64,000 nt of DNA from Sphingomonas sp. LHG3406-1 (GTDB taxonomy: Bacteria > Pseudomonadota > Alphaproteobacteria > Sphingomonadales > Sphingomonadaceae), in assembly GCF_029637485.1 (NCBI RefSeq), contig NZ_CP069128.1:2512001-2576000 (forward strand), given 5' to 3'. Shown one piece after another: positions 36,673 to 56,154 of this stretch (position 1 is the first letter of the stretch; every line of letters begins with the position of its first letter). The position numbers were made by a program, and so were the translations under genes. The notes below the pieces were generated by a model that was given only the letters and a program-made list of their open reading frames with translations, was not told where the DNA came from and did not search any database.

Positions 36673-36673
36673 C

Positions 36674-39818: not shown

Positions 39819-40790
39819 TTGAACGCCACCACCACCATGCGCGCGGCCGTCCTGTCGGCGCCGCAGACCATCCGCGTCGACGATCTTCCGCTGCCCGAAC
39901 CCGGTCCCGGCCAGGTCCGAGTCAAGCTCGAAGGCTGCGGCGTCTGCGCCTCGAACCTCGGCCCGTGGAGCGGCCCCGAATGGCTGCAATATCCAGGCGA
40001 GCCGGGCGGCATGGGCCATGAGGGCTGGGGCGTGATCGAGGCGGTCGGCGACGGCGTCACCGATCTCGCCGTCGGCGACCGGGTCGCGGCGCTGAGCTAC
40101 AACAGCTACGCCAGCCACGACCTCGCCGATGCCGACAAGGTGCTGAAGCTTCCGCAAGCGCTCGCCGGCCAGCCCTTCCCCGGCGAACCGCTCGGCTGCG
40201 CCTTCAACATCTTCAAGCGCGCCGACATCCAGGCCGGGCAGACCGTCGCCATCCTCGGCATCGGTTTCCTCGGCGCGCTGCTGACGCGGCTCGCGACCGA
40301 TGCCGGCGCGCGCGTCATCGCCATCTCCCGCCGCGACTACAGCCTCGACGTCGCGCGCGAGTTCGGCGCCGCCGAGACCATCCCGATGACCGATCACACC
40401 ATGATCATCGAGCGGGTGAAGGAGCTGACCGACGGCAAGTTCTGCGAGCGCGTCATCGAGGCGGTCGGCAAGCAATGGCCGCTCGACCTCGCCGGCGAAC
40501 TCACCGCCGAGCGCGGCAAGCTGATCGTCGCCGGCTACCACCAGGACGGTCCGCGGCAGGTCAACATGTGGCTGTGGAACTGGCGCGGGATCGACGTCAT
40601 CAACGCCCACGAGCGCGATCCTCAGGTCTATATGGACGGCATCCGCGAGGCGATCGACGCCGTCGCCAGCGGCCGCCTCGATCCGAGCCCGCTCTACACC
40701 CATCGCTTCAAGCTCGACGAGCTCGCCCAGGCGCTCGACGCCACCCGCGATCGCCCAATGGGCTTCCTGAAGGCGATCATCGAACCGTGA
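39819..40790 (+). CDS. Medium-chain zinc-type dehydrogenase/reductase
   Basis: 323 aa from TTG 39819, chosen because GAAGGGGA lies 6 bases upstream; ATG 39837 has no ribosome site. Catalytic-domain motifs GCGVCASNLGPW and GGMGHEGWGVIEAVGDGV and the Rossmann VAILGIGFLGALLTRLA are present. The structural-zinc cysteine loop of alcohol dehydrogenases is missing, so it is a shorter polyol-dehydrogenase-like form. Its stop overlaps the next GTG, so it is coupled to the Gfo/Idh/MocA gene; a sugar or inositol substrate is plausible. Confidence 0.85.
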   Translation: MNATTTMRAAVLSAPQTIRVDDLPLPEPGPGQVRVKLEGCGVCASNLGPWSGPEWLQYPGEPGGMGHEGWGVIEAVGDGVTDLAVGDRVAALSYNSYASHDLADADKVLKLPQALAGQPFPGEPLGCAFNIFKRADIQAGQTVAILGIGFLGALLTRLATDAGARVIAISRRDYSLDVAREFGAAETIPMTDHTMIIERVKELTDGKFCERVIEAVGKQWPLDLAGELTAERGKLIVAGYHQDGPRQVNMWLWNWRGIDVINAHERDPQVYMDGIREAIDAVASGRLDPSPLYTHRFKLDELAQALDATRDRPMGFLKAIIEP

Positions 40791-41776
40791 GCGACAAGCC
40801 GCGTCTGGGCTTCCTCGGCACCGGCTGGATCGGCCGGCACCGGATGGAAGCGATGCTCGCCACCGGCCTCGTCGACGCCGGCGCCATCGTCGATCCGAGC
40901 GCCGAGATGCGCGCCGAGGCCGCCGCGCTGGCGCCCGACGCCGCCACCGTCGACACGATCGACGAGCTGCTCACCATGGACCTCGACGGGCTGGTGATCG
41001 CGACGCCCAGCGCGCAGCATGCCGAGCAGTCGGTGCGCGCGCTGGAGGCGGGGCTCGCCGTCTTCTGCCAGAAGCCGCTCGGCCGGACGGAAGCTGAGGC
41101 CCGTGCCGTTGTCGATGCCGCGCGGTCGGCCGACCGGCTGCTCGGCGTCGATCTCAGCTATCGCTTCACCCGCGGCATGGAGGCGATCCGCACCGCCATC
41201 CAGTCCGGCGAACTCGGACGCGTGTTCGCGGCTGACCTGACCTTCCACAATGCCTACGGCCCCGGAAAGCCGTGGTTCCTCGACCCGGCCCAGTCAGGGG
41301 GCGGCTGCGTGATCGACCTTGGCGTGCACCTCGTCGACCTCGCCTTGTGGGCGCTGGACTGGCCCGAGGTGGTGGCGGTCGAAAGCCATCTGCTCGCCGG
41401 CGGTGTGCCCCTCACAGATCCGGCGGCATGCTGCGAGGATTATGCCGTGGCGACGCTCCGGCTGGCGGGCGGAGCCATCGTCCGCCTCGCCTGCTCCTGG
41501 CACTTGCCGGCCGGGACAGAGGCGGTGATCGGGGCGGAATTCTATGGCGACGGCGGCGCCGCGGCGCTGCGCAATGTCGGCGGCTCCTTCTACGACCTTG
41601 CGGCAACCCGCATGGCGGGCACGCAGCGCTGGGAGCTGGCGCCGGTCGACAGCGACTGGGGTGGCCGCGCCGCCGCCGACTGGGCGCGGCGATTGGCCTC
41701 AGGCGAAGGCATCGACCCGGATGCCGAGCGACTGGTCGACGTCGCTCGCCTGCTCGACCGCATCTACCAGCGCTAG
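40787..41776 (+). CDS. Gfo/Idh/MocA family oxidoreductase
   Basis: 329 aa from GTG 40787, overlapping the previous TGA (GTGA). Rossmann motif LGFLGTGWIGRHRM, the family's EKP motif in variant form (FCQKPLGRTEAEA), and the active-site region CVIDLGVHLVDLALWAL with the conserved D-x3-H. It oxidises or reduces a sugar or inositol using NAD(P). With the MDR partner and ino1 12 kb away, an inositol or UDP-sugar role is possible. Its 3' end overlaps the convergent gene by 78 bases. Confidence 0.87.
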   Translation: MSDKPRLGFLGTGWIGRHRMEAMLATGLVDAGAIVDPSAEMRAEAAALAPDAATVDTIDELLTMDLDGLVIATPSAQHAEQSVRALEAGLAVFCQKPLGRTEAEARAVVDAARSADRLLGVDLSYRFTRGMEAIRTAIQSGELGRVFAADLTFHNAYGPGKPWFLDPAQSGGGCVIDLGVHLVDLALWALDWPEVVAVESHLLAGGVPLTDPAACCEDYAVATLRLAGGAIVRLACSWHLPAGTEAVIGAEFYGDGGAAALRNVGGSFYDLAATRMAGTQRWELAPVDSDWGGRAAADWARRLASGEGIDPDAERLVDVARLLDRIYQR

Positions 41777-43357
41777 GCGGTAGCGGGCGGTGGCGGCGGC
41801 GTGGCGAGGCGCTTCGTCCGCCGGGCTCATCTCCACCCCGAGGCCGTGCCTGCCGATGCGGAAGGCGCAATAGGCGATCCGGTAGAAGGCGGTCAGCGCC
41901 GGATCGACCCCGAGCGCGCGTTCGAGCCGGTCGACGTCGGCCGCCGGAAGGTCGAACTCGACCATCACTCCGGCCAGATCCCAGGCGAGGTCTTGCGCGC
42001 CGACGAGGTCGTGTCCGGCATGATGGTCCAGGGCGTCGGCCTTGAGCAGCTGCCCGCCGGGCAGGCGGAGCCATTCGTGCGCTTCCATCCGCCCGTCCGT
42101 CCGAACCCGCCGGACGAGCGGCTGCAGCGCGTCGACCTCCGGGCTCCAGCGGGCCAGTTCAGGCACGTTGCGGCGGACCATGGCGACCAGTTCGGCGAGG
42201 CTTGCGCCGGCGCCGTGCTCGACCGGCAGGAGCGAGCGGATGCGCAGATAGACGGTGAGCTCGTCGAGCGTCGGCCGTGCTGGCCGCGCGTCGGCGTGCC
42301 AGCGCAGCGCCAGCCAGCCATGGGTCATCCCGGCGACCTCGGGACCGAAACCTGCCTCGTGGAGCGTGCGGGCGAGGGCAAGCTTGCCATGCCCGTTCGG
42401 GCCGAGCCCGGCGAAGCGGAGCATCCACTCCTTACCCGCGGCCCGGACGAGGAACTTCATCCGCTCCCAGCCCGGCACCACCGCCGGCCACTCGCTTTCC
42501 GACGCGTTCCGCAACGGACGCCAGCCGCCTGCCGAAATGTCGGTCCAGCGCTCGATCGGGCCGAGGAGCTGCGCCGTCCAGCGGGTCAGGCGGTCGGGTC
42601 TGAGCACCGGCCGCTGCGCGGTCCGCCAGCGTTCGCGGTGCCGGGCGGAGGCCTGCATCCCGAGGTCGCCATGGTGGCCCGGCAGGAAGGCGATGCGCGC
42701 CGCCGGGACGCCGCGGGCCTCCAGCCAGTCGGCGACCGCGCCGAAGCTGCTGCCGGACAGACCCGGTCCTTCGTCCACGATGACGAAATGCGGATCGCCG
42801 TCGAGCAGCGATTGCTCCAATTCCGGCGCGATCGAGAGCGAGCGAGCGAACGGATCGCCGCCGGGCCTCAGCGTGACCGGCGTTTTGGCGCCGAGCGCCG
42901 CGGCGGCCACTGCCGCGAGGCCCGTCCCGATGCTGCGCAGGCCGATGATCCGCGGCTCGCCCGCCAACACCAGCTTGCGCGCGGCCAGGGCATAGGCCTC
43001 GGGATAGAGAGCGTAATGCGCATAGCCTTCGGCCTGCTTGACGGTGACGCTCGCCGGCAGCGGCAAAAGCGGGGGCAGGGGCGGGCAGATGCTGCCTTCA
43101 CAGTCCCGATCCCACGACCGCATCAGGGCCGCGCCGAGCGTGACCAGCGCCTGCAGAAGCGCTGCTTCCGCCGGTCGCTCGCGGTCCGCGCCAGACTTCG
43201 CGAAGTCCGCATCCGCGACGCCCTGCGCCAGTCCGGCGAGGGCGATGAAGCGGCTGCGCAGCTCGTCGTGGGTAAGGAACCGGCGCTCGTCGCGCTTCAG
43301 CGCCGCCAGCAGGGCGGCCGTGGCGACCTCCTCGCGGGCGTCGCCATAGACAAGCAT
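41699..43357 (-). CDS. Large protein with PRTase-like domain and kinase-like C-terminal half
   Basis: 552 aa. I do not recognise the whole protein. Residues about 105-240 look like a type I phosphoribosyltransferase core: PEAYALAARKLVL, RIIGLRSIGTGLAAVAAAALG, then HFVIVDEGPGLSGSSF (191-205), which resembles the PRPP-binding loop. Residues about 285-480 look like an aminoglycoside-phosphotransferase/choline-kinase fold: KEWMLRFAGLGPNG, then AGHDLVGAQDLAWDLAGVM. No signal or membrane segment. It begins one base before the UXS-like stop and ends the eight-gene glycosyl operon. Both domain calls are by eye and the reaction is unknown. Confidence 0.65.
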   Translation of the reverse strand: MLVYGDAREEVATAALLAALKRDERRFLTHDELRSRFIALAGLAQGVADADFAKSGADRERPAEAALLQALVTLGAALMRSWDRDCEGSICPPLPPLLPLPASVTVKQAEGYAHYALYPEAYALAARKLVLAGEPRIIGLRSIGTGLAAVAAAALGAKTPVTLRPGGDPFARSLSIAPELEQSLLDGDPHFVIVDEGPGLSGSSFGAVADWLEARGVPAARIAFLPGHHGDLGMQASARHRERWRTAQRPVLRPDRLTRWTAQLLGPIERWTDISAGGWRPLRNASESEWPAVVPGWERMKFLVRAAGKEWMLRFAGLGPNGHGKLALARTLHEAGFGPEVAGMTHGWLALRWHADARPARPTLDELTVYLRIRSLLPVEHGAGASLAELVAMVRRNVPELARWSPEVDALQPLVRRVRTDGRMEAHEWLRLPGGQLLKADALDHHAGHDLVGAQDLAWDLAGVMVEFDLPAADVDRLERALGVDPALTAFYRIAYCAFRIGRHGLGVEMSPADEAPRHAAATARYRLALVDAVEQASDVDQSLGIRVDAFA

Positions 43358-44389
43358 CTATTCGGCGGCGGCGAGGGGTAATGGTTGGGCCTGTCCCCCG
43401 CCGAAGTCGAAGGCCGGCCGCGCATCGCCGAGCTGTCCAGCGAAATAGGGGATGGTGGCCGCAAGCCCCTGTTCGAGCGACACCCTCGGGCTCCATTGCA
43501 GCAGACTGCCCGCAAGGCCGATGTCGGGCCGCCGCCGCCGCGGATCGTCGACGGGCAGGGGGCGATTGGTCACCGCACTGGTCGAGCCGGTCAGGCGAAG
43601 GACGCGCTCGACAAGGTCGGAGACGGTCAGCTCCTGCGGGTTGCCGATGTTGACCGGCCCCGGCTGCGGCCCGTCATAGGCCATCAGGCGGAGGATGCCT
43701 TCGACCAGATCGTCGACGTAGCAGAAGCTCCGCGTCTGGCTGCCGTCGCCATAGATGGTGACCGGCGTGCCGCTCAGCGCCTGGCAGATGACGTTGCTGA
43801 CGACGCGGCCGTCGTCCGGGTCCATGCGCGGGCCATAGGTGTTGAAGATGCGGACGACGCGCACGTCGACGCGGCCGGCACGGTCGAAATCGAAGGCCAG
43901 GGTTTCGGCCGCACGCTTGCCTTCGTCATAGCAGGCGCGTGGACCGGTGCAGCTGGTCCAGCCGCGATAATCCTCCCGCTGCGGATGCACTTCGGGATCG
44001 CCATAGACTTCGCTGGTCGAGGCCAGCAGGTAGCGCGCCCGCTGCCCTTCGGCGAAGCGCAGCAGGTTGCGGCTGCCGAGCACGTTGGTGAGCATCGTAT
44101 GCTCAGGGTCCGCCTGGTAGGCGGGCGGGGAAGCGGCGCAGGCGAGATTGAAGACGTGGGTGAAGCCGCGCCCATCAAGCGATTGGGGGAGCTGCTCGGT
44201 GACGTCGTGCTCGACGAAATCAAAGCCCTCACGCCCGCGCAGATGAGCGAGATTCTCCGCCCGTCCGGTCTGGAGATTGTCGAGCACGACGACATCGGCG
44301 CCGCGTTCGAGCAGCCGGTCGACGAGGTTGGATCCGATGAAGCCGGCGCCTCCGGCGACGAGGACGACGTCCTTCGGTCTGCTTGCCAT
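43358..44389 (-). CDS. NAD-dependent epimerase/decarboxylase, UDP-glucuronate decarboxylase-like (UXS)
   Basis: 343 aa from ATG 44389 (AAGGA 7 bases upstream; ATG 44395 is too close to it). Extended-SDR features: VVLVAGGAGFIGSNLVDRLL, VFNLACAASPPAYQADPEHTMLTN (typical of UXS), STSEVYGDPEVHPQREDYRG, ACYDEGKRAAETL (YxxxK), VRIFNTYGPRMDPDDGRVVSNV and GDGSQTRSFCYVDDLV. It would turn UDP-glucuronate into UDP-xylose, supplying a pentose donor to the neighbouring glycosyltransferases. Confidence 0.87.
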   Translation of the reverse strand: MASRPKDVVLVAGGAGFIGSNLVDRLLERGADVVVLDNLQTGRAENLAHLRGREGFDFVEHDVTEQLPQSLDGRGFTHVFNLACAASPPAYQADPEHTMLTNVLGSRNLLRFAEGQRARYLLASTSEVYGDPEVHPQREDYRGWTSCTGPRACYDEGKRAAETLAFDFDRAGRVDVRVVRIFNTYGPRMDPDDGRVVSNVICQALSGTPVTIYGDGSQTRSFCYVDDLVEGILRLMAYDGPQPGPVNIGNPQELTVSDLVERVLRLTGSTSAVTNRPLPVDDPRRRRPDIGLAGSLLQWSPRVSLEQGLAATIPYFAGQLGDARPAFDFGGGQAQPLPLAAAE

Positions 44390-44391
44390 CG

Positions 44392-45495
44392 TCATTCCTT
44401 CATTCCACGGGCGCCGGTCAGCGCGGCCATCGGCTTGGCCGCCATGGTCTCGGCAAGGTGCCGCTCGAGTTCGGCCGCGCGTACCGCTGCCGTATGCTCC
44501 CTGAGCGCCCGCTGCCGCGCCGCCTCGCCGATCGCCCGCGCCTGGGCGGGGTCGATGCCTTTCAGCGCCGCGATCACATCCTCGGTGGTGGAGGCGAGCA
44601 GGATCTCGCGGCCGGGCGCGAACAACTGGTCCAGGCCTTCCCACTTGTCCGAGATCACCGGGCAGGCACACATCGCGGCCTCGAACAGGCGGACGCTGGG
44701 GCTCCAGCCGGCAGCGATCATGTCGGCGCGGGTGACGTTCAGCGTGAAGCGCGAGGCCGCGTAGAAGGCCGGGTGGTCCGCAGGCGGCACATGCTCGATC
44801 CGCTCGACGTTCGCGGGCCAGTCGATGTCGGCGGGATATTGCGGACCGGCGACGCAGAAGCGACTGTCCGGCAGCGCTCGGGCGGCGGCGCAGAGCAGCT
44901 TGTCCACCGTCGGCTGGCGGTCCGCCGACCAGGTGCCGAGATAGGAGAGGTCCCAGCGCGTCGGCACGTCCAGCGGGCGATAGAGCTCCGGGTCGGCCTG
45001 GCAGTAGAGGGCGCGCGCCGCCGGGCTGCCAAGCTGCTCCTCGATGAAACGCAGGGTCGGGCCGCCGGTGAAGCTGAGATAGAGGTCGAAGCCGGGGATC
45101 AGCTCCGGGCTCAGATATTCGAAGTCGCCGCGCGCCAATTTGGCGAGGGTGACCGGCGTGTCGATGTCGTAGAAGGCGGTGGTGCCGCGCGCCGTACGCT
45201 GGACGAAGCGGCCGACCTCGACGCCCTCCGGCACATAGGAGCCGACGATCACCGCATCGGCCCGTGCGATCTCGCCCGCAAAGCGATCGAGGTCGGCGAG
45301 ATCGCTGTAATATTCGAGGCGGCACCAGTCCCGATCGGTCAGGTCGCGCTGGCTGGCATACCAGGGCACGTCGCGCTCGAGGAACAAGATGTCATGACCG
45401 CGCGCGGCGAATTCGGCGAGCAGGCCGCGGAAGGTGGTCGCATGGCCATTCCCCCAGGAGGAGGAGAGCGACAGGCCGAGGACGACCAGCTTCAT
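44392..45495 (-). CDS. CgeB-like glycosyltransferase (a)
   Basis: 367 aa from ATG 45495, overlapping the upstream stop (ATGA). Two-domain GT-B fold: N-terminal KLVVLGLSLSSSWGNGHATTFRGLLAEFAARGHDI, C-terminal SYLGTWSADRQPTVDKLL and SVRLFEAAMCACPVISDKWEGLDQLFAPGREI, the donor-binding Glyco_trans_1_2 (PF13524) region. Homologous to the next two genes but diverged. Donor and acceptor unknown. Confidence 0.85.
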   Translation of the reverse strand: MKLVVLGLSLSSSWGNGHATTFRGLLAEFAARGHDILFLERDVPWYASQRDLTDRDWCRLEYYSDLADLDRFAGEIARADAVIVGSYVPEGVEVGRFVQRTARGTTAFYDIDTPVTLAKLARGDFEYLSPELIPGFDLYLSFTGGPTLRFIEEQLGSPAARALYCQADPELYRPLDVPTRWDLSYLGTWSADRQPTVDKLLCAAARALPDSRFCVAGPQYPADIDWPANVERIEHVPPADHPAFYAASRFTLNVTRADMIAAGWSPSVRLFEAAMCACPVISDKWEGLDQLFAPGREILLASTTEDVIAALKGIDPAQARAIGEAARQRALREHTAAVRAAELERHLAETMAAKPMAALTGARGMKE

Positions 45496-46586
45496 GCGAG
45501 CGCCATCTCGCGCCTGGCGGCAACCGCCTGGCGGAGCACCCGGTCGGCTTCGACGCCGCGGTGCGCATAGGTATGTTCGGCGAGCACGCGGGCGAGCGCC
45601 GCCTTGCCGATCGCCTCGGCCCGACCGGGCGTCAACCGTGCAAGATGTTCGGCGACGTCCTGCCCGTCGCGGGCGACCAGCACCTCCGTATCGGGCTGGA
45701 GGAACTGCTCGATTCCTTCCCACGCGTCGGTGACCAGGCAGGCTGCGGCGCCGGCGGCTTCGAACACGCGGGTCGCGGGCGAGAAGCCGACATCGGCCAT
45801 GCTGTCGCGCGCCACGTTCAGCACGGCGGCCGGCGAGCAGTTGAAGGCATTATGGTCGGCCGTCCCGACATGCCCGACGGCGCGGACATTGGCCGGCATG
45901 CCCTTGCCCGTCCAGCCATTGCCGCCAAGGAGGAAGCTCCTGTCCGGGCTCAATTCGGCAGCGCGGAGGAAGAATTCCTCGACTCGCGCCTCGCGGTCGG
46001 GAAGGCGATTGGCGAGGAAGCCGAGGTCGGCCGCGAACCGGTCGTCACGCTCCACCGGATGATGCGTTGCAGGGTCGAGCGCATTGTAGATGGGGATGCA
46101 CTTCCTGGCGCCTATCGCCTCATAGGCGGCGATCACCGGCGGCCCGCCACCGTAGGTGAGCACGAGGTCGAACTCGCCGAGGCGGCGGCGAAGCGGATGG
46201 TCGGGAGCGGCGCGAAGCTCCTCCAGCGTGGCCGCCGCATCGACGTCCCAATAGACCTTGACCGCGTCTCGCCGCGCGCGGTCGAGCACGCCTTCGGCAA
46301 GCTCGTCGTCGAACACGCCGACGCCGCTCGCCTTGACCACGATATCGGCGGCCGCCGCTTCATCCAGCACGCGGGCGCAGGCGTCCGGCGTCGCTTCGTA
46401 AACGACCGACCTCGCATAGGAAGGCGGGTCGATGTCCCGGTGCTGCTGCCGCTCGAAGGCGTCCGGCTCGTAGAAGGTGATGGCGTGGCCGTGTCCGGCC
46501 AGTTCCTTGAGGATGCCGCGATAATAAGTGGCGGCCCCGTTCCAGTAGGCGCTGAGCAGCGAGGAGCCGTAGAAGGCGATGTTCAT
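45492..46586 (-). CDS. CgeB-like glycosyltransferase (b)
   Basis: 364 aa, coupled by four-base overlaps at both ends. GT-B with MNIAFYGSSLLSAYWNGAATYYRGILKELAGHGHAITF and the C-terminal donor region ADLGFLANRLPDREARVEEFF, ATRVFEAAGAAACLVTDAWEGIEQFL. It keeps the same N-terminal 'YWNGAATYYRG' pattern as its neighbours (WGNGHATTFRG, CWNHGNAHFLRG), so the three arose by duplication. Confidence 0.85.
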   Translation of the reverse strand: MNIAFYGSSLLSAYWNGAATYYRGILKELAGHGHAITFYEPDAFERQQHRDIDPPSYARSVVYEATPDACARVLDEAAAADIVVKASGVGVFDDELAEGVLDRARRDAVKVYWDVDAAATLEELRAAPDHPLRRRLGEFDLVLTYGGGPPVIAAYEAIGARKCIPIYNALDPATHHPVERDDRFAADLGFLANRLPDREARVEEFFLRAAELSPDRSFLLGGNGWTGKGMPANVRAVGHVGTADHNAFNCSPAAVLNVARDSMADVGFSPATRVFEAAGAAACLVTDAWEGIEQFLQPDTEVLVARDGQDVAEHLARLTPGRAEAIGKAALARVLAEHTYAHRGVEADRVLRQAVAARREMALA

Positions 46587-47689
46587 GCGTCGACCCTGTT
46601 GGTGATTGTCGCGACGATCCCGAGCAGCTCGTCGACCCGGTGGGCGCAGCTGTGGCGGGCGCGGATGGTGGCGAGGCCGTGGGCGGCGAGCCGCTCGCGC
46701 AAGGCGGGGTCGTCGCGGAGCGCGGTGAGATGGCGGGTCATCTCGGCACCGTCGCGGGCGACGAGAAAGTCTTCGCCGGCGGTGAACAAATGCTCGGCAT
46801 CGTCCCAGGGCGCGCTGACCAGCGGAATGCCGCAGGCAAGCGCTTCGAACACGCGGATGGTGGGAATGCCCGGCAGCGTCTCGCGGTAGAAGCGGCGAGG
46901 AACGTGGACGGTGGCGAGCGAGTGGGCGAGCAGCTCGGGCGCGCTGGCGTTCGGCGCCCAGCCGGCGAAGTCGACCCCGTATCGGGCAAGGGTCGCCAGC
47001 GCCTCGGCCGGATAGCGGACGCCATGGACGGTCAGCGGCAGCCCGGCGTCACGGGCAGGCCGGAACAGATATTCCTCGAGCTCGGTCGAGCGCTCGCCGT
47101 CGCCCCAGTTGCCGATCCAGACGAGGCCCTGCCGCTCCTGCTCGACGACGGGCGGGCGGAAGTGGCGGGTGTCCGCGGCTTCGTGCCAGGTCCACACCCG
47201 GCCGTCCCAGCCCCAGCGGCGGTAGACCTCCGACAGGGTCTCGCCGAACGCCAGCACGCCATCATAGCCGGTGAGATCATAGGCCCGCATGGCGTCGGGC
47301 TCGCTGACGGCGCGGTGATGCGTGTCGTGGAAGAGCAGGGTGAAGCGCCCGCCTGCCTTGCGGAGCGCACCCACGGCCGCGACCAGTGCGGGCTCGTTCC
47401 ACTCGTGCACGATGACGAGGTCCGCGTCGCCGACCAGTTCCTCGACGTCATTGCCCGGCGCATATTCGTGCGTGACGTCGGCAAGATCGGGATAGGCTGC
47501 GCGATAGGCAGCGAGCCCTTCATCGCCGGCGTCGGCGCGCAGATTGGCGAGGCTCCAGGCACCGCTCGGCTCCAGCGAGCGGACCTGGTGCCCGCGCGCC
47601 TTCAGCTCGCGCAGCACGCCGCGCAGGAAATGCGCGTTGCCGTGGTTCCAGCAGCTCAGCAGGGAATGGGTGAAGTAGACGATCCTCAC
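46583..47689 (-). CDS. CgeB-like glycosyltransferase (c)
   Basis: 368 aa from GTG 47689 (GGAGCGGG upstream), GTGA overlap with the preceding gene; the longer open frame is an overlap. N-terminal RIVYFTHSLLSCWNHGNAHFLRGVLRELKARGHQV and C-terminal GLVWIGNWGDGERSTELEEY, TIRVFEALACGIPLVSAPWDDAEHLF. Third tandem copy. Sequence divergence between copies suggests each adds a different residue. Confidence 0.85.
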   Translation of the reverse strand: MRIVYFTHSLLSCWNHGNAHFLRGVLRELKARGHQVRSLEPSGAWSLANLRADAGDEGLAAYRAAYPDLADVTHEYAPGNDVEELVGDADLVIVHEWNEPALVAAVGALRKAGGRFTLLFHDTHHRAVSEPDAMRAYDLTGYDGVLAFGETLSEVYRRWGWDGRVWTWHEAADTRHFRPPVVEQERQGLVWIGNWGDGERSTELEEYLFRPARDAGLPLTVHGVRYPAEALATLARYGVDFAGWAPNASAPELLAHSLATVHVPRRFYRETLPGIPTIRVFEALACGIPLVSAPWDDAEHLFTAGEDFLVARDGAEMTRHLTALRDDPALRERLAAHGLATIRARHSCAHRVDELLGIVATITNRVDA

Positions 47690-48795: not shown

Positions 48796-49871
48796 GCGGG
48801 GACCTTGAGCCTGATGGGATCGCGAACCAGGCCGCGCTCCGACGCGAGCCAGTCCGCCAGCGCCGTCACGCCCTCGCGCCAGCCACGCGCCCGGCCGAGG
48901 CCAAGTTCGGCGCGGATGGCCCGCGTGTCGGCGACGAAGTAGCGCTGGTCGCCTGCGCGCCAGTCGTCGTAACGGACGTCCGGCTCGCGCCCGGTCAGTT
49001 CGGCGATGTGGCGCATGAGCTGGCGCAGCGACACCGCATTGGCCGGCCCTCCACCCAAGTTGAAGGCGCGCCCGGCGACCCGGTCGATCTGCTTCCAGAC
49101 GGCCATGTAGGCGTCGACCGCGTCGCCGATATCGAGGATGTCGCGCACCTGGCAGCCGTCGCCATAGAGGGTGATCGGCTGGTCGTTGAGGGCACGGATG
49201 AGGAAATGGGCGACCCAGCCCTGGTCCTCGGTCCCCATCTGCCGCTGCCCGTAGATGCAGCTCATGCGGACTACCGCTGCGGGCAGTGCGAAGCTGCGCG
49301 CATAATCGAGCACATACTGGTCGGCGGCGCCCTTGGAGCAGCCGTAGGGCGTGTGGAAGTCAAGCGGCCGCGCCTCGCCGATGCCGTGGGCGCGGACCTC
49401 GGGATCGACCGGCTCGTAGCGATCCTCCTCGAGCTTGAACACGAGGTCGGCGAGGTCGCCGTACACCTTGTTGGTCGATGCGAAGACAACGGGGATGCGG
49501 CGGCCAGAAGTGCGCAGCGCGTCCAGCAGGTGAAGGGTGCCGCGCACGTTAATGTCGAAGTCTTCGCGCGGGGTGACGAGGCTGGTGGTGACCGCCACCT
49601 GCGCGGCCATGTGGAAGACGGCTTCGGCTTCCGTCGCGGCGGCCGCGACTGAGTCTTCGTCGCGTACATCGCCGAGGGTGAAGCTGATCCGCCGGCCGTG
49701 CTTCTGCTTCAGCCAGTCGAGGTTGCGTTCGACACCAGGCCGCGACAGCGCGTCGAAGACATGCACGTCGTGCCCCTCGGCGGCGAGCCGGTCGGCGATG
49801 TTGCTGCCGATGAAGCCAGCGCCGCCGGTTACCAGCACCGGCCGGCCCCTCAGGAGCGCCGGCCCGCTCAC
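48792..49871 (-). CDS. NAD-dependent epimerase, CDP-paratose/tyvelose-2-epimerase-like
   Basis: 359 aa. Extended SDR: PVLVTGGAGFIGSNIADRLAAEGHDV, VFHMAAQVAVTTSLVTPREDFDINVRGTLHLLDAL, VFASTNKVYGDLADL, HTPYGCSKGAADQYVLDYAR (YxxxK) and CIYGQRQMGTEDQGWVAHF. The STNKVYG and GTEDQGWVAHF elements match the CDP-tyvelose epimerase branch. It probably interconverts a nucleotide sugar used by the operon's transferases. Confidence 0.86.
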   Translation of the reverse strand: MSGPALLRGRPVLVTGGAGFIGSNIADRLAAEGHDVHVFDALSRPGVERNLDWLKQKHGRRISFTLGDVRDEDSVAAAATEAEAVFHMAAQVAVTTSLVTPREDFDINVRGTLHLLDALRTSGRRIPVVFASTNKVYGDLADLVFKLEEDRYEPVDPEVRAHGIGEARPLDFHTPYGCSKGAADQYVLDYARSFALPAAVVRMSCIYGQRQMGTEDQGWVAHFLIRALNDQPITLYGDGCQVRDILDIGDAVDAYMAVWKQIDRVAGRAFNLGGGPANAVSLRQLMRHIAELTGREPDVRYDDWRAGDQRYFVADTRAIRAELGLGRARGWREGVTALADWLASERGLVRDPIRLKVPA

Positions 49872-50983
49872 GCGACCAGCCCCCGCGCCTCAAGCTCCGC
49901 CTTGGCAGCGTCCACCCGATCCACCGCCGTCTGCCCGGCGACCCATTCGGCGAGTTCGGCGAGGCCTTCGCCGAAGTCCTTGGCGGCGCGGAAGCCGAGG
50001 CGGTCGGCGGCGAGCGTGCCGTCGCAGAAGCAGTGGCGGATGTCGCCGATGCGGCCCTTGCCGGCGATCTCGGGCTCGAGATCGTCCTTGCCGAGCGCCT
50101 TGGCGAGCGCCTGGCCGACTTCCCGCACCGAGCGGTCGTGGCCCGAGCCGATGTTGAACACGCCGCCGGCCGCCTGTGGCAGTTCCAGCGCGTCGGCGAA
50201 GGCGCGGGCGACGTCCGTCACATGGACGAAGTCGCGGCGCTGCTCGCCATCCTCGAAGATGACCGGCCGCTGGTCGTTCAGCAGCCGCGACGAGAAGATC
50301 GCCAGCACGCCGGTGTAGGGGTTGGAGAGCGCCTGGCCGGGCCCGTAGACGTTGAACAGGCGCAGGCAGACGCCTTCCATGCCGTAGGCGCCGGCGATGA
50401 TGAGGGTGGTGCGCTCCTGCACGTATTTGCCGAGCGCATAGATGGAGGCGAGGTCCGGGCGCTTCCATTCGGGCGTCGGCACCGGGGTCAGCGGCCGGCC
50501 CTGCTGGTCGAGCGGCTCCCAGCTCTGGCCCTGGCCGGCGCGGGCGCTGCGCTCGGCATCCTGCACGTGACGACCGTCGGCGTCGCGGTAGAGGCCTTCG
50601 CCATAGATGCTCATCGACGAGGCGGTGACGATCCGGCGCACCGGCTTCTCGATCAACTGCTCCATCAGCACCGCGGTGCCGAGGTCGTTGCCGCTGGTGT
50701 AGCGCTCGATCTCGTACATCGACTGGCCGACCCCGACTTCCGCGGCGAGGTTGATGACGCTGTCGGCGCCCGAGAGCGCCTTGCTGACAATGTCGCGGTT
50801 GCGGACGTCCCCGACCAGCAGCTCGACGTCGGCGGGCAGGAGCCTGGATCCGTCCACCTCGCCGTGGACCTGCTCGATCAGGCTGTCGAGGACGCGGACC
50901 TTGTGGCCGCGAGCGAGAAGTTCATTGCAGACCGAGCGGCCGATGAAGCCGGCCCCGCCGGTAACCAGGACAGTTTCGCCCAA
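49868..50983 (-). CDS. NAD-dependent nucleotide-sugar epimerase/dehydratase
   Basis: 371 aa, first gene of the eight-gene minus operon. Extended SDR: TVLVTGGAGFIGRSVCNELLARGHKV, VINLAAEVGVGQSMYEIERY, VTASSMSIYGEG, SIYALGKYVQERTTLI (YxxxK) and LRLFNVYGPGQALSNPY, with the late VFNIGSGHDRSV. An insertion of about 40 residues between the Ser and Tyr motifs is larger than usual. Likely a 4-epimerase or 4,6-dehydratase; the substrate is unknown. Confidence 0.86.
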   Translation of the reverse strand: MGETVLVTGGAGFIGRSVCNELLARGHKVRVLDSLIEQVHGEVDGSRLLPADVELLVGDVRNRDIVSKALSGADSVINLAAEVGVGQSMYEIERYTSGNDLGTAVLMEQLIEKPVRRIVTASSMSIYGEGLYRDADGRHVQDAERSARAGQGQSWEPLDQQGRPLTPVPTPEWKRPDLASIYALGKYVQERTTLIIAGAYGMEGVCLRLFNVYGPGQALSNPYTGVLAIFSSRLLNDQRPVIFEDGEQRRDFVHVTDVARAFADALELPQAAGGVFNIGSGHDRSVREVGQALAKALGKDDLEPEIAGKGRIGDIRHCFCDGTLAADRLGFRAAKDFGEGLAELAEWVAGQTAVDRVDAAKAELEARGLVA

Positions 50984-51139
50984 CGCGCGATCCTCGAGAC
51001 TTTCGGGAACGGCCCATTCCGGCCTTCCTTCCGGCTCCTCAATGAAGGATCATCTTGTTTGTTCCCGCCATTGCCAGCGAACTTTAGTTGTCTCGCAGTC
51101 GAAAGTAAGCCCACAACTTGCCGCCTTGTTGAAACGGTA

Positions 51140-51159: not shown

Positions 51160-51231
51160 CTGCGAATTAGGATCGTGAAAGGAACAAAGCTTCAGTGCCG
51201 CTGTTGAGCAGCCGTAACAAGAGGGGTTTTC

Positions 51232-51798
51232 GTGCCAATCGTCCATCTGCTTCGCCACGGCGCTCACGACGACTTGGGGCTTCGCCTCACTGGTCGTGCC
51301 CCTGATGGCGGGTTGAGCGCCCTCGGGCGCACGCAGGCGGTCGCGGCCGCGCGCAGGCTGCAGGCCGATCCCCCCGCTGCCGTCTATGCAAGCCCTCGCC
51401 GGCGCACGATGGAAACGGCCTCCATCGTCGCCGAGCATCTCGGCCTCGAGGTCATGGAGGCGCCCGCGCTCGACGAGATCGACTTCGGCGAATGGACCGG
51501 GCGGAGCTTCCTCCAGCTCCACGACGATCCGCGCTGGGCGGTCTGGAACAGCCGCCGGAGTGAGGCGCGCTGCCCGGGCGGGGAAACGATGGCCGAAGCT
51601 CAGGCGCGCGCGCTGGCCTTCGCCTTCGAAGTGGCGGCCACGCACGACGGGCCTGCCCTTCTTGTCACCCATTGCGACGTCATCCGCGCCCTCCATTGCT
51701 GGTCCGAGCGGCGCTCGCTCGACAGCATCCTCGATACGCAATGCGAGCCCGGCAGCCTGTCGGTCCTCGCCCTCGCCGCCGACAGGCAGGCGGCCTGA
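51232..51798 (+). CDS. Histidine phosphatase family protein (phosphoglycerate-mutase-like)
   Basis: 188 aa from GTG 51232. The RHG catalytic motif is HLLRHGAHDD at residues 5-14, with LSALGRTQAVAAARRL, VYASPRRRTMETA, the second acid in LDEIDFGEWTGRSF and the distal His in LLVTHCDVIRA. It removes phosphate from small phosphoesters. As first gene of the plus operon, followed by TGATG coupling to the methyltransferase, it may dephosphorylate a sugar or inositol phosphate intermediate. Confidence 0.9.
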   Translation: MPIVHLLRHGAHDDLGLRLTGRAPDGGLSALGRTQAVAAARRLQADPPAAVYASPRRRTMETASIVAEHLGLEVMEAPALDEIDFGEWTGRSFLQLHDDPRWAVWNSRRSEARCPGGETMAEAQARALAFAFEVAATHDGPALLVTHCDVIRALHCWSERRSLDSILDTQCEPGSLSVLALAADRQAA

Positions 51799-52577
51799 TG
51801 CTGGATGCAAAGGACCGGCCGCTGGTGAAGGCGGAGATCGAACGGCGGGTGGCGGAGCTCGGGCCGTGGTTCCACGACCTCGATCTTGCCGGCGTGCGCA
51901 CCGCGCCCGACCACTTCCTGTGGCGCTATCCCGAGAACAAGTTCAAGCGCTTCCGCCACGTCATTCCCGAGGACCTGACCGGCAAGAGCGTGCTCGACAT
52001 CGGCTGCAACGCCGGTTTCTACAGCTTCGAGATGAAGCGCCGCGGCGCGGAGCGTGTGCTCGGCATCGACCATGACGAGCGCTATCTCGAGCAGGCCCGC
52101 TACGCCGCCTCCGTGCTCGGCCTGCGCGACATCGAGTTCCGGCGCGCGGAAGTGTGGGACGTCGGTGCGCTCGGCGAGCGCTTCGACCTCGTCATCTTCA
52201 TGGGCGTGCTCTACCACCTGCGCCACCCGCTGCTGGCGCTCGACCTCATCCACGAGCATGTCGCCCGCGACCTGCTGCTGTTCCAGTCGCTGCAGGCGGG
52301 GGCCGAGGGCATGTTCGAGCCGGACGCCGACTACGACTTCTTCGACGGAAAGAAGGAGTTCGATCGGGCGGAGTGGCCCAAGCTCCATTTCGTCGAACAG
52401 CGCTACGCCAATGATCCCACCAACTGGTGGGTACCGAACGAGGCCGCCAGCGCCGGCATGCTCCGCGCCGCCGGCTTCGCCATCCTCGAGCATCCCGAGC
52501 CCGAAGTGTTTCTCTGCCGCCGCGGCGAAGGTCCGGCGAGCGGCGCCGTTTATCCCGCGAAAGGAAGTGCCGCTTGA
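51798..52577 (+). CDS. Class I SAM-dependent methyltransferase (TIGR04290/CmoB-like)
   Basis: 259 aa from ATG 51798 overlapping the previous TGA. N-terminal helical region with FHDLDLAGVRTAPDHFLWRYPENKFKRF, then the SAM-binding core GKSVLDIGCNAGFYSFEMKRRGAERVLGID, and LVIFMGVLYHLRHPLLALDLI. The N-terminal extension plus CmoB-like core matches the 'TIGR04290 methyltransferase' type as I remember it. It likely methylates a sugar or polyol of the pathway. The stop TTGA overlaps the next gene's start. Confidence 0.87.
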   Translation: MLDAKDRPLVKAEIERRVAELGPWFHDLDLAGVRTAPDHFLWRYPENKFKRFRHVIPEDLTGKSVLDIGCNAGFYSFEMKRRGAERVLGIDHDERYLEQARYAASVLGLRDIEFRRAEVWDVGALGERFDLVIFMGVLYHLRHPLLALDLIHEHVARDLLLFQSLQAGAEGMFEPDADYDFFDGKKEFDRAEWPKLHFVEQRYANDPTNWWVPNEAASAGMLRAAGFAILEHPEPEVFLCRRGEGPASGAVYPAKGSAA

Positions 52578-53503
52578 TCGAAGCCGCGATGATCTGGAAC
52601 GAGCCCAACAACAAGTCACATTGGGACCCGGTGATCGATCCCGACTGGTCGCGCTTCGCCGAGATGGGCAAGCTCGCCGCACGCGCCATCCGCGAGGTCA
52701 ATCCGGCAGTGAAGCGCGTGCTCGGCGGCATCTCGCCGATCGATCCCGCCTTCATCCAGCGGCTCGCCGGACATGGCCTGATCGACGAACTGGACGTCAT
52801 CGCCGTGCACGGCTTCCCGCTCGACTGGAACCTGTGGAACATCAACGAGTGGCCGCGCCGGATCGACGAGATCCAGGCGGTCGTCCCCGACCACGAACTC
52901 TGGGTAACCGAAGTCGGGGTGGGCTCGTTCGGCGCCGAGGAAGTGCAGGAGTTCGGCGTTCGTCGGACGGCCGAGTTGCTGCGCGGCAAGGTCGACCGAA
53001 TCTTCTGGTATTCGCTCTATGACCTGCCGCAGGCGTGGGAGGCGACCACCCGCCACCGTGAGGCCGAGGGTTCGTCCTACTACCGCCATTTTTACATGGG
53101 GCTGCTGAAGGAGGACGGGACTCCCAAGCTCGGCCTGAAGGCCTTCAAGGAACATGGCGCCGGACTCGGGCTGATGCAGTGGTTCCATTACGAGGATCAC
53201 CGGCTGCACGATGCCGTGGCGTGGCTGAAGCGCCTCGGCGTCACCAAGCTGCGCACCGGGCTGAGCTGGGCCGACCGCTTCCGGCCCAATGCGCTCGACT
53301 GGTTCGACCGGCAGATGGAGGCGCTGGCCGACTTCGACACGACCGTCACCTTCTGCTTCACGCCCGAGCATCTGGGGATCGAGCCCCACCACACCAGCCC
53401 GCCGCGCGATCCGCAGGGCTTTGCCGATTTCTGTGCCGAGATGATCGACCGCTACGCGCCCGCTTCGGCGAACGCCCGGCCGGCGCTGGCGGCCGCCGAG
53501 TAG
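52574..53503 (+). CDS. GH-A clan glycosidase (xylosidase-like), apparently circularly permuted
   Basis: 309 aa from TTG 52574 (AAGGAA 7 bases upstream, TTGA overlap); ATG 52589 is an alternative. The clan GH-A acid/base motif IWNEPNN is at residues 7-13, normally near residue 150, and the nucleophile motif WVTEVGVGS is at about 110-118. IFWYSLYD and FYMGLLKEDGTPKLGLKAF look like the usual end of the barrel (to about 192). After that, residues 200-297 read like the start of such a barrel: LHDAVAWLKRLGVTKLRTGLSWADR, DWFDRQMEAL, VTFCFTPEHLG. So strands 1-3 seem to follow strands 4-8. No signal peptide. Both catalytic Glu are present, but the substrate is unknown. Confidence 0.78.
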   Translation: MIEAAMIWNEPNNKSHWDPVIDPDWSRFAEMGKLAARAIREVNPAVKRVLGGISPIDPAFIQRLAGHGLIDELDVIAVHGFPLDWNLWNINEWPRRIDEIQAVVPDHELWVTEVGVGSFGAEEVQEFGVRRTAELLRGKVDRIFWYSLYDLPQAWEATTRHREAEGSSYYRHFYMGLLKEDGTPKLGLKAFKEHGAGLGLMQWFHYEDHRLHDAVAWLKRLGVTKLRTGLSWADRFRPNALDWFDRQMEALADFDTTVTFCFTPEHLGIEPHHTSPPRDPQGFADFCAEMIDRYAPASANARPALAAAE

Positions 53504-53516
53504 AAGGGAAGAGGCC

Positions 53517-54638
53517 ATGGAGCCGAACATCAACATCGCCATCGCCGGCATCGGCAACTGCGCCTCAAGCCTGGTCCAGGGCATCGCTTATTATCAGAAC
53601 GGCGGCTCCAACGAGCAGATCGGGCTGATGCACTGGGATCTCGGCGGCTACCGGCCCAAGCATCTCAAGGTCGTCGCGGCCTGGGACGTCGATAGCCGCA
53701 AGGTCGGCAAGGACGTCAACGAGGCGATCTTCTCCGCCCCCAACAACACGCAGGTCTTCTGCGACCACGTGCCGCCGACCGGTGCCCGGGTCCGCATGGG
53801 CAAGCGCCTCGACGGGGTCGCGCCGCACATGGCCGACTATCCGCCCGAGCGCAGCTTCATGCTGGCCGAGGATGCCGAGCCGAGCCGCGAGGACGTGGTC
53901 AAGGTGCTGCGCGACACGAACGCGCACGTGCTGATGAACTATCTTCCGGTCGGCAGCCAGGAAGCGACGGAATTCTACGCCGAATGCGCGCTCGAGGCGG
54001 GAGTCGCCTTCGTCAACTGCATCCCGGTGTTCATCGCGTCGGACGAGAATTGGGCGAAGCGCTTTCGCGATGCGAACGTCCCGATCATCGGCGACGACAT
54101 CAAGGCGCAGCTGGGCGCGACCATCGTCCACCGCGTGCTGACCGATCTGTTCGCCAAGCGCGGCGTGCGGCTCGACCGCACCTACCAGCTCAACACCGGC
54201 GGCAACACCGACTTCCTCAACATGCTCGAGCGCTCGCGCCTCAAGCACAAGAAGGAGTCCAAGACCGAGGCGGTGCAGGCGGTGGCCGAGCGGCGGCTGG
54301 AAGATGAGAATATCCACGTCGGGCCGTCGGACTATGTCGCCTGGCAGAAGGACAACAAGGTCTGCTTCCTGCGCATGGAAGGCCGGATGTTCGGCAACGT
54401 GCCGATGAACATCGAGCTTCGCCTGAGCGTCGAGGACAGCCCGAACAGCGCGGGCGTGGCGATCGACATGATCCGCTGCGCCAAGCTCGCGCTCGACCGC
54501 GGAGAGGGCGGGCCGATCGAGGCACCGGCGGCCTATTTCTGCAAGCATCCGCCGGTCCAGATGACCGACGATGAGGCCGACCTCGCGACGGAGGCGTTCA
54601 TCCGCGGTGAGCCCAAGCCAGGCAGACGAGTCCACTAG
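53517..54638 (+). CDS. ino1: myo-inositol-1-phosphate synthase
   Basis: 373 aa with GGGAAGAGG before the ATG. Actinobacterial/archaeal-length MIPS: INIAIAGIGNCASSLVQGI, NAHVLMNYLPVGSQEATEFYAECAL, FVNCIPVFIASDENWAKRF, IIGDDIKAQLGATIVHRVL, QLNTGGNTDFLNMLERSRL and VEDSPNSAGVAIDMIR. It converts glucose-6-phosphate to inositol-1-phosphate using NAD. Presence in the operon with methyl- and glycosyltransferases argues for an inositol core in the product. No phosphatidylinositol-type synthase is seen in the window. Confidence 0.95.
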   Translation: MEPNINIAIAGIGNCASSLVQGIAYYQNGGSNEQIGLMHWDLGGYRPKHLKVVAAWDVDSRKVGKDVNEAIFSAPNNTQVFCDHVPPTGARVRMGKRLDGVAPHMADYPPERSFMLAEDAEPSREDVVKVLRDTNAHVLMNYLPVGSQEATEFYAECALEAGVAFVNCIPVFIASDENWAKRFRDANVPIIGDDIKAQLGATIVHRVLTDLFAKRGVRLDRTYQLNTGGNTDFLNMLERSRLKHKKESKTEAVQAVAERRLEDENIHVGPSDYVAWQKDNKVCFLRMEGRMFGNVPMNIELRLSVEDSPNSAGVAIDMIRCAKLALDRGEGGPIEAPAAYFCKHPPVQMTDDEADLATEAFIRGEPKPGRRVH

Positions 54639-55161
54639 ACCCACGCCGACGGTCCGTCCGGAGGACGGGCTGGCCTCGGCGCTGACGCGCAACATCGCGG
54701 CCCTCGCCGAGCGGCGGCAGGCCGAGGAGGCGCGTGCCGGGACCGACCAGCGGGTCGCCCGCGCCATCACCCGCTTCGCCGGATCGATGGTGTTCGTCTG
54801 GCTTCACGTGACGCTGGTCGTCGGATGGATTGCGATCAACCTCGGCTGGACTCCGCTGAGGCCATTCGACCCGACCTTCGTCATCCTCGCGACCTTCGCC
54901 TCGGTCGAGGCGATCTTCATCTCGACCTTCATCCTCATCGCCCAGAACCGGGCGGCCGAGGTGGCCGACCGGCGGGCGAGCCTCGACCTTCAGATCAGCC
55001 TCCTGTCCGAGCATGAGGTGACCCAGCTGATCCGCCTCGTCACCCGGATCGCGGACCATCTCGGGATCGAGGAGGCGTCCGATCCCGAGCTTGCCGAACT
55101 GCAGCGGACGGTCGCTCCGGAAGCGGTGCTCGAGCGGATCGAGGAAGCGGAGGAGGAATAG
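54607..55161 (+). CDS. DUF1003 family membrane protein
   Basis: 184 aa from GTG 54607, overlapping ino1 by 32 bases; the start is uncertain. DUF1003 features: RITRFAGSMVF-like segment with VWLHVTLVVGWIAINLGW and DPTFVILATFASVEAIFISTFILIAQNR as two membrane helices, then a soluble helical tail (ADRRASLDLQISLLSEHEVTQ). Function unknown across the family. Last gene of the plus operon. Confidence 0.85.
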   Translation: MSPSQADESTRPTPTVRPEDGLASALTRNIAALAERRQAEEARAGTDQRVARAITRFAGSMVFVWLHVTLVVGWIAINLGWTPLRPFDPTFVILATFASVEAIFISTFILIAQNRAAEVADRRASLDLQISLLSEHEVTQLIRLVTRIADHLGIEEASDPELAELQRTVAPEAVLERIEEAEEE

Positions 55162-55362: not shown

Positions 55363-55399
55363 TGGATTGCTTCGTCGCTGCGCACCTCGCAATGACGGG
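55363..55399. repeat. REP-like dispersed palindromic element
   Basis: The element pairs GATTGC with GCAATG around a GC-rich centre (CTTCGTCGCTGCGCACCTC) in the 240-bp gap before the HisN-like gene. Its minus-strand translation contains SRHCEVRSDEAIH, a string often seen in spurious proteins from alphaproteobacterial genomes, which marks it as one copy of a widespread short repeat. One copy seen in this window. The rest of the gap (55162-55401) shows nothing else. Confidence 0.7.
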
Positions 55400-55401
55400 A
55401 C

Positions 55402-56154
55402 ATGGAGCTGACGACCTTTCTTCGCCACCTGTCCGCCACTGCCCGTTCGGTCACCCTCGGTGCACCGGTGCCGGACGCCGACAACAAGGCGGGGGCGGGC
55501 GCCTATGATCCGGTCACCGAGATCGACCGGGCGGCCGAGCGGGCGCTCCGGACGGCGATCGAGGAAGCGTTTCCGCAGGACGGGATCGAGGGCGAGGAAT
55601 ATGGGCTGGTCCGGGCGGAGGCGCCGCGGCGCTGGCTGCTAGATCCGGTCGACGGCACGCGCGCGCTCATCTGCGGGCTGCCGAGCTGGACGACCCTGGT
55701 CGCGCTGGTCGAGGAGGGCGAGCCGACCGCCGGCTTCATCGATGCCCCGGCGCTCGGCGAACTGATGATCGGGCTTCCGGGCGCGACGATGCTCAACGAC
55801 AGGCCCGTGCGCGTGTCGGGCTGCGCGACGCTGGCCGACGCGCGCCTGTCGTCGACCGATCCCTATCTCTTCGCCGGCGCCGAGGCCGCGGCATTCGACC
55901 GGGTGCGCCGGGCCGTGCGGCTGACGCGCTTCGGCTATGACGCGCTCGCCTATGCACGGCTTGCCGCCGGCCACCTCGACCTCGTCGTCGAGAGCGGATT
56001 GCACCGCCACGACTGGGCGGCGCTTGTCCCCGTGGTGCGCGGCGCGGGCGGCATCATCGGCGACTGGGAGGGCGGCAGCGACTTCTCGCAAGGGCGCATC
56101 GTCGCCGCGGCCTCGACCGCGCTCTACGAACAAGCGGTCGCGCAACTGCGATAA
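55402..56154 (+). CDS. hisN: Inositol monophosphatase superfamily phosphatase, HisN-like
   Basis: 250 aa. Metal-site motifs: EGEEYG, LLDPVDGTRALICGLPSWTTLVAL and HDWAALVPVVRGAGG. The TRALICGLPSW version fits the histidinol-phosphatase (HisN, TIGR02067) branch better than classical inositol monophosphatases. It may therefore serve histidine synthesis, though the position after ino1 also allows dephosphorylation of inositol-1-phosphate. The 240-bp gap with a repeat in front means it is probably transcribed separately. Confidence 0.8.
   Translation: MELTTFLRHLSATARSVTLGAPVPDADNKAGAGAYDPVTEIDRAAERALRTAIEEAFPQDGIEGEEYGLVRAEAPRRWLLDPVDGTRALICGLPSWTTLVALVEEGEPTAGFIDAPALGELMIGLPGATMLNDRPVRVSGCATLADARLSSTDPYLFAGAEAAAFDRVRRAVRLTRFGYDALAYARLAAGHLDLVVESGLHRHDWAALVPVVRGAGGIIGDWEGGSDFSQGRIVAAASTALYEQAVAQLR

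Follow-up and report, generated by a model that had tools for sequence, protein, structure and literature searches.

A 64-kb stretch of the one-contig, 2.85-Mb genome of Sphingomonas sp. LHG3406-1 (here called the window) carries two divergent runs of genes, one on the minus strand from 50983 down to 41699 and one on the plus strand from 51232 to 55161, that form one conserved biosynthetic unit. Among its products is a glycosidase that, judged from its sequence, is a circularly permuted barrel resembling those of clan GH-A, with its two halves swapped. The gene families, their conservation, the permutation, the link between the permuted enzyme and the inositol-3-phosphate synthase INO1, and an upstream promoter motif were all computed here. 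With modest confidence, we favor the interpretation that the product of this mostly alphaproteobacterial cluster is a small methylated oligosaccharide or glycoside, which is assembled in the cytoplasm and belongs to the general stress response governed by EcfG.

The original prediction, made from the letters of the window, had described two divergent operons and had called for a comparison of gene neighborhoods. That comparison has been run, and the genes are indeed kept together at each of 13 distant loci and, less completely, at 80 named loci. The distant loci were chosen by their methyltransferase, a member of the family TIGR04290, and 20-31 kb around each was examined; thus they show what accompanies TIGR04290 rather than how common the pathway is. 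Nine genes are present at all 13: those for the sugar epimerases epiA and epiB, a GT4-family glycosyltransferase, three CgeB-like glycosyltransferases (CgeB1 to CgeB3), a protein resembling UDP-glucuronate decarboxylase (the UXS-like protein), the methyltransferase, and the glycosidase. INO1 and a histidine phosphatase accompany them at 11 of the 13, a kinase-fold protein at 6, and a pair of dehydrogenases (adh and IolG) at 4.

The named loci are the best 80 of at least 540 methyltransferase relatives in named genomes, each viewed over at most 10 kb per side and often less, and their record titles are mostly alphaproteobacterial. All 80 have the methyltransferase, 75 the glycosidase (74 with the full permuted span and one that ends at a contig end), 71 INO1, 71 CgeB3 or a paralogue, and 68 the phosphatase. 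The genes for epiA, epiB, GT4, CgeB1, and CgeB2 are found at 59 loci each, followed by a nucleotidyltransferase (38), the UXS-like protein (28), a radical-SAM (S-adenosylmethionine) protein (27), the kinase (19), adh (17), and IolG (16).

Closer to the source genome, the kinase gene occurs in 7 of 61 related genomes, and TIGR04290 scores above its cutoff in exactly the same 7, a coincidence that places the gene arrangement far beyond chance. All six other members of the genus that carry the kinase gene retain the locus, with some of its genes missing. For example, no phosphatase was seen in G007 and G030, where the kinase gene has been relocated, and the G008 locus is without an inositol-monophosphatase-family gene found in the window; the loci of G004 and G030 run to the end of the examined stretch or contig. 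In G007 (C1:1270000-1304000; L017, L018), epiA, the glycosidase, and IolG are each in two pieces, and represent either pseudogenes or sequencing errors. Across 398 genomes of Pseudomonadota, TIGR04290 exceeds its cutoff in 14, the source genome among them.

The glycosidase gene (52574-53503, plus strand, TTG start) had been noticed before as encoding an odd enzyme, a description that missed the swapped order of its strands. The protein has 309 residues and begins at the strand bearing WNEPN (Glu10), with TEVG (Glu113) one third of the way along, and its C-terminal end reads as strands 1-3; the chain order is 4-8 followed by 1-3. Both glutamates are invariant in nine sequences and align with the glutamates of PslG after strands 4 and 7. 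A profile built from these nine sequences matches PslG as two swapped pieces, with residues 201-297 on PslG 25-131 (8.0 bits) and residues 3-154 on PslG 132-301 (21.9 bits). The native-order profile totals 30.7 bits against PslG, and the rotated sequences align with PslG 26-301 as a single piece at 44.8 bits.

The same pattern is evident with closer relatives. Two sister loci encode a homologue of ordinary strand order, fused in one continuous reading frame with epiB. Against these two proteins the native chain aligns as two swapped pieces (95.5 + 56.2 bits and 89.7 + 44.7 bits), and the rotated chain as one (141 and 126 bits). Likewise, the Pfam model Glyco_hydro_cc, whose cutoff is 21, gives the native chain 19.5 and the rotated chain 22.0. 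The predicted structure (predicted local distance difference test score 77.5, predicted template modeling score 0.82) has eight strands of at least 3 residues, the number that a barrel needs. Searches with Foldseek and VIA-align returned generic TIM barrels and did not themselves show the permutation, as expected because both are linear aligners. Thus the enzyme has the two catalytic glutamates of clan GH-A in a chain that does not run from strand 1 to strand 8, and it would work like a GH-A enzyme without being a regular member. Because the chain begins at a catalytic strand, there is no space for a signal peptide ahead of it.

The profile also tracks the pathway closely. At E <= 1e-10 it matches 12 of 289 genomes of the class. 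All 12 also have TIGR04290, which occurs in 14 of the 289; the 275 genomes without TIGR04290 gave no match. Six of the 12 match as one full-length piece and are permuted, and six have the ordinary-order form; five of the latter were called by both pieces at once and one (G538) by a single piece, with both pieces recovered in a separate search. On a quick methyltransferase tree (110 rows, 107 of them different), the permuted and ordinary states need 2 changes, compared with a shuffled mean of 5.9, and a single origin may be compatible with the tree.

The two forms of the glycosidase appear to mark two versions of the pathway. In a set of 110 loci that includes three repeated contigs, a script rule assigned 94 to the permuted form, 6 to the ordinary form, and 10 to neither, the last group including G325 (ordinary by direct alignment), G007 (a broken copy), and several cut-off contigs. 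INO1 (53517-54638, plus strand; PF01658 123 bits, cutoff 27) is present at 90 of the 94 permuted loci and none of the six ordinary-order loci, or 87 of 91 and none of six without the repeated contigs, counts that are uncorrected for kinship. Whole-genome searches failed to find INO1 in seven genomes of the ordinary-order type (G468, G483, G538, G596, G686, G374, and G325), and found it in five of the six genomes in the class sample whose glycosidase is permuted.

The phosphatase gene (51232-51798, plus strand; PF00300 144 bits) follows INO1. Over the 110 loci, again uncorrected for kinship, 85 carry both genes, 8 INO1 alone, 3 the phosphatase alone, and 14 neither, and the six ordinary-order loci are without both. 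INO1 and the histidine phosphatase are therefore probably partners. Within the genus sample, 8 of 37 genomes encode INO1, namely the seven with the cluster plus G017; lower scores were obtained for the G017 copy and for a second INO1 copy in G008. Taken together, these pairings and this distribution suggest that INO1 and the phosphatase supply inositol specifically to one of the two pathway versions. The earlier idea of an inositol-containing product may thus hold for permuted-form loci that carry INO1, and fails as a general statement because ordinary-order versions lack this gene.

A feature that the original prediction overlooked concerns regulation. Upstream regions of up to 300 nt were searched for a strict EcfG promoter motif (GGAAC-N16/17-CGTT), with the opposite strand and shuffled sequences as controls. 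Of 71 INO1 genes, 25 are preceded by the motif, compared with 3 on the opposite strand and 0.14 after shuffling; for epiA genes the figures are 7 of 56, with 2 on the opposite strand and 0.12 after shuffling. Among 14 other genes tested, 11 gave no match, and the remainder were epiB (1/57), adh (1/17), and CgeB1 (4/59). The four CgeB1 matches share the same offset of 141 in four loci and were therefore set aside as a coding-sequence coincidence. By record title, the 25 INO1 loci comprise 11 from Bradyrhizobium, 5 from Microvirga, and 9 others that are single or paired records.

Sphingomonas melonis uses a looser motif, published as GGAAC-N17-20-GTT, and its likely direct targets carry the motif within 100 bp (PMC6599016). 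There are two matches to this relaxed motif in the 64 kb, and one of them (51181-51205, plus strand, with a 17-nt spacer) starts 51 nt 5' of the phosphatase gene, the lead gene of the plus-strand run. Across the named loci the relaxed form lies upstream of 36 of 71 INO1 genes (18 on the opposite strand; 0.98 with shuffling), 16 of 56 epiA genes (9; 0.78), 5 of 65 phosphatase genes (0; 0.97), and 2 of 79 methyltransferase genes (1; 0.91). Among the Sphingomonadaceae, 13 of 14 stretches scanned contain it, counting L082, which is a second copy of G008, and L083, which has the same sequence. Chance hits are likelier in G030, G007, L080, and L120 because these stretches are 704-2605 nt long. In five compact stretches (the window, G020, G009, G008, and G004), the motif reads GGAACAAAGCTT...CTGTT with differing spacer letters. 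With one mismatch allowed in the -10 part of the strict motif, the window contains 16 sites, of which three fall between the operons, and this version is too loose to use alone. The genome also encodes NepR, and a relaxed motif of the same type, located about 240 nt upstream of the NepR match, serves as a local positive control. We conclude that the general stress response likely induces the cluster.

The promoter evidence bears on a different interpretation, in which the product is a specialized secondary metabolite or signaling glycoside built on inositol or another cyclitol and not a stress protectant. The patchy distribution of the cluster (14 of 289 genomes of the class and 7 of 37 in the genus) would suit such a compound, as would the B12-dependent radical-SAM gene that joins the methyltransferase at 27 of the 80 named loci, one example of which belongs to TIGR04295. 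However, a stress-promoter motif in several lineages and the same core across many genera would not be expected of it, and we regard this interpretation as improbable.

From these observations, we infer the substrates, the order of steps, the product and its cellular location, its export, and its dependence on stress as follows. INO1 would convert glucose-6-phosphate to inositol-3-phosphate, and the histidine phosphatase would strip the phosphate either before or after the GT4 enzyme adds the first sugar. In mycothiol synthesis, MshA adds the first sugar in a similar manner, and a phosphate removal step occurs there as well. The UXS-like enzyme would make UDP-xylose, the two epimerases would remodel nucleotide sugars, and the three CgeB-like transferases would lengthen the chain. 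The TIGR04290 enzyme would methylate the product, and the permuted glycosidase, acting inside the cell, would trim or transfer a residue.

A bolder extension of this scheme, which we advance tentatively and hold with less assurance than the scheme itself, is that perhaps several hundred Alphaproteobacteria make a previously unknown class of stress-induced methylated oligosaccharide containing inositol and xylose. One version of the pathway would combine de novo inositol synthesis with a permuted, catalytically intact GH-A-like glycosidase; the other would dispense with inositol synthesis and use an ordinary-order glycosidase joined in one chain with a nucleotide-sugar 2-epimerase. Inside the cell, the glycosidase would then serve for transglycosylation or trimming, its action coupled to that of the epimerase.

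The individual genes named in the original prediction are all present by Pfam and NCBIfam scans and by their translations. Six of the seven junctions in the minus-strand run are 4-base overlaps when the UXS-like gene is started at the ATG at 44395, and at the last junction the UXS-like and kinase genes abut without overlap. The run begins with epiA (49868-50983), a GalE-like NAD-dependent sugar epimerase of the short-chain dehydrogenase/reductase (SDR) superfamily (PF01370 158 bits) whose matches in the PDB are generic epimerases. Next is epiB (48792-49871), which among solved SDR families appears closest to CDP-tyvelose 2-epimerase (261 bits, with 119 for the next family), and then the GT4-family gene (47686-48795; PF00534 51 bits, PF13439 48 bits). 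The three tandem CgeB-like transferases, CgeB1 (46583-47689, GTG start), CgeB2 (45492-46586), and CgeB3 (44392-45495), score 125.7, 128, and 139 bits against PF13524, well above its cutoff of 25 bits.

The UXS-like protein (43358-44395, minus strand) was rightly named. Among solved SDR families, UDP-glucuronate decarboxylase is by far its closest match in sequence, with 321 bits for human UXS1 and 153 for the next family, and the protein contains a CYDEGK stretch that we take to be a mark of UXS enzymes. The final minus-strand gene (41699-43357) had been read as a phosphoribosyltransferase/kinase-like protein. Its kinase half stands, because residues 251-540 adopt the choline/aminoglycoside-kinase fold. 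The phosphoribosyltransferase reading was not borne out by any Pfam or NCBIfam hit or solved relative, and the structural search was filled by kinases. The N-terminal half likewise has no Pfam or NCBIfam hit and no solved relative, although its fold was not searched separately. A link of three proteins to defense systems was rejected, PADLOC having given no hit for them.

The plus-strand run consists of the phosphatase, the methyltransferase (51798-52577, overlapping by 1 base), the glycosidase (overlapping by 4 bases), INO1, and a DUF1003 membrane protein (54571-55161; PF06210 93 bits). The listed start of the last gene overlaps INO1 by 68 bases, so its true start may lie later; it is not a core member, being found at 11 of 74 permuted loci. 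More peripheral still is a plus-strand gene for an inositol-monophosphatase-family or HisN-like phosphatase (55402-56154; PF00459 145 bits; TIGR02067 239 bits, below the cutoff of 275), present at 5 of the 74. At its other end the locus is larger than first described, because a zinc alcohol-dehydrogenase family gene (adh, 39819-40790) and an IolG-like GFO/IDH/MocA dehydrogenase gene (40787-41776) join it at some loci. These accessory genes form a two-gene plus-strand unit, and the IolG and kinase genes, which lie on opposite strands, overlap at their ends.

An ABC sugar importer (56229-60370) adjoins the cluster and occupies the same place in G020, G009, and G008; it and the inositol-monophosphatase-family gene accompany the locus in some close relatives. 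The importer's binding protein is encoded in the frame of the open reading frame 58319-60370, with its Pfam match starting at residue 305, and not by the frame 59161-60405. On the other side is a carbohydrate-use region, 23388-38167, that encodes two tryptophan-halogenase-family proteins, a GH97 enzyme, an alpha-amylase, a TonB-receptor plug protein, and a major facilitator superfamily transporter, with a second such transporter at 38129-39634. Such surroundings raise the question of whether the locus serves sugar or inositol catabolism, with the importer, dehydrogenases, and glycosidase working together to take up and break down a glycoside. We consider this very unlikely: four glycosyltransferases, a UXS-like enzyme, and INO1 are biosynthetic, and the dehydrogenases are missing from most of the 80 loci.

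Other genes near the cluster vary among lineages. At many loci a sugar nucleotidyltransferase and a further CgeB-like gene precede the methyltransferase (e.g., L053 14219-15001); a nucleotidyltransferase of this type is not in the window. Loci from Acidobacteria and Ramlibacter (L117, L157, L126, and L132) have a TIGR04290-type methyltransferase, a CgeB-like gene, and a nucleotidyltransferase, and neither INO1 nor the glycosidase was found in the stretches examined, that of L117 being only 4.3 kb. A phosphopentomutase (deoB) family occurs at 14 of the 80 loci (L100, L104, L106, L109, L113, and nine others), none of which has the kinase gene, an exclusion with a chance of 0.015 when uncorrected for kinship and cut-off loci. 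This pattern may hint at a ribose step.

Some neighbors invite the alternative that the product is a surface glycan or glycolipid, such as a coat against stress or desiccation; the genes for its carrier, flippase, and export would then be found at other places in the genome. In Bacillus, CgeB itself is associated with the spore surface, and PslG, the nearest solved relative of the glycosidase, comes from an exopolysaccharide locus. Beside the named loci are proteins of the polysaccharide pyruvyl transferase family (5/80; e.g., L081 7887-8954), FrhB/FdhB-like proteins (6/80), further GT4 enzymes (12/80), GNAT acetyltransferases (10/80), and PIG-L deacetylases (5/80; e.g., L144 11620-12528), where the labels derive from one protein per family identified by Pfam and the counts are family sizes among the 80 loci. 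Pyruvyl transferases are common in surface-glycan loci, and these hits together with those to PIG-L speak a little for a coat and for a mycothiol-like product. The earlier assertion that the product is not a capsule is therefore too strong as it was worded.

The accompanying claim that the locus has no polymerase or flippase is upheld: no polymerase, flippase, exporter, or lipid-carrier transferase was recognized among the locus proteins scanned with Pfam, a search that did not extend to the rest of the genome. Nor was a carrier transferase, polymerase, or exporter recognized in one protein from each of 19 unnamed neighbor families present at 5 or more of the 80 loci (13 inspected by eye and ten scanned with Pfam, some by both means, with three of the ten giving no hit). 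Considering also the lack of room for a signal peptide on the glycosidase, a surface coat seems to us possible, though on the unlikely side.

Several observations, the pyruvyl transferases among them, weigh against a stress-induced cytoplasmic oligosaccharide. Inositol need not be the acceptor, given the ordinary-order versions without INO1, and one genome (G584) has the permuted glycosidase and TIGR04290 with no INO1 match in a genome search. Within stretches of at most 10 kb per side, some of which may be cut short, the UXS-like gene was found at 39 of 74 permuted loci. Regarding regulation, 46 of 71 INO1 loci lack the strict motif before the lead gene, and a locus from the same family (G191) is without even the relaxed one. 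In the window, the strict motif with spacers of N15-18 has no match where 1.29 would be expected by chance; only the relaxed Sphingomonas form fits. Moreover, neither "inositol" nor "CgeB" appears in the main text of the paper on the S. melonis stress regulon (PMC6599016).

Even so, we continue to favor a stress-linked oligosaccharide or glycoside. The core is kept together in Sphingomonas, Roseomonas, Brevundimonas, Bradyrhizobium, Microvirga, and others, and with such conservation across many genera it must make something useful. The promoter motif ties the cluster to the general stress response and thereby makes its role testable. In addition, sister versions of the pathway offer a natural experiment in fold evolution, with the same enzyme in ordinary order and fused to an epimerase in one, and permuted and standing alone in the other. 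As far as our limited literature search shows, the permutation, the fused ordinary-order counterpart, the division of the pathway by INO1, and the link to a stress promoter are new; a weak search found no published report of a circularly permuted GH-A enzyme.

Two families in the cluster already have NCBIfam names, which indicates that parts of it had been noticed, and to this extent the pathway is not undescribed. The window methyltransferase is a member of TIGR04290 (meth_Rta_06860; 358.1 bits, curated cutoff 300). A relative, G131, has a member of TIGR04295 (B12_rSAM_oligo; 682 bits, cutoff 400) between epiB and GT4, whereas the window has no radical-SAM gene at this point and the two genes overlap by 4 bases. 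NCBIfam names both families as hypothetical equivalogs and gives no function. A literature search found no paper naming either family and none with both inositol-3-phosphate synthase and CgeB.

Among characterized systems, capsule and O-antigen loci exported by Wzx/Wzy or ABC systems share the combination of nucleotide-sugar enzymes with several glycosyltransferases, but differ in that no initiating carrier transferase, flippase, polymerase, or exporter was recognized in this locus. Mycothiol synthesis is similar in other ways. INO1 is nearest to the mycothiol-type model (TIGR03450 444.6 bits; PDB 1gr0 412 bits), a GT4 enzyme and a phosphatase are in the same locus, and a PIG-L family protein, the family to which MshB belongs, lies beside 5 of the 80 named loci. 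In contrast, there are four transferases rather than one, and no PIG-L protein is among the window locus proteins scanned. The mycothiol pathway was rejected because INO1 (444.6 of 638) and the GT4 enzyme compared with MshA (26.6 of 462.5) both fall below the NCBIfam cutoffs.

For the glycosidase, the closest likeness is to PslG (PDB 4zn2/5bx9), which we take to be a GH39 member of clan GH-A. The two enzymes share both conserved glutamates (in the NEP and TE motifs) and an eight-strand barrel, but the window enzyme has its halves swapped and consists of about 300 residues with no other domain. A precedent for the rearrangement is provided by GH70, a natural circular permutation of the barrel of GH13 that begins at helix 3/strand 4, nearly the same register (PMC11046441). 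GH70 enzymes differ in being large and extracellular, whereas the window glycosidase is small, has no signal peptide, and is encoded in a biosynthetic operon. Presumably, GH70 also belongs to another family group and uses another mechanism.

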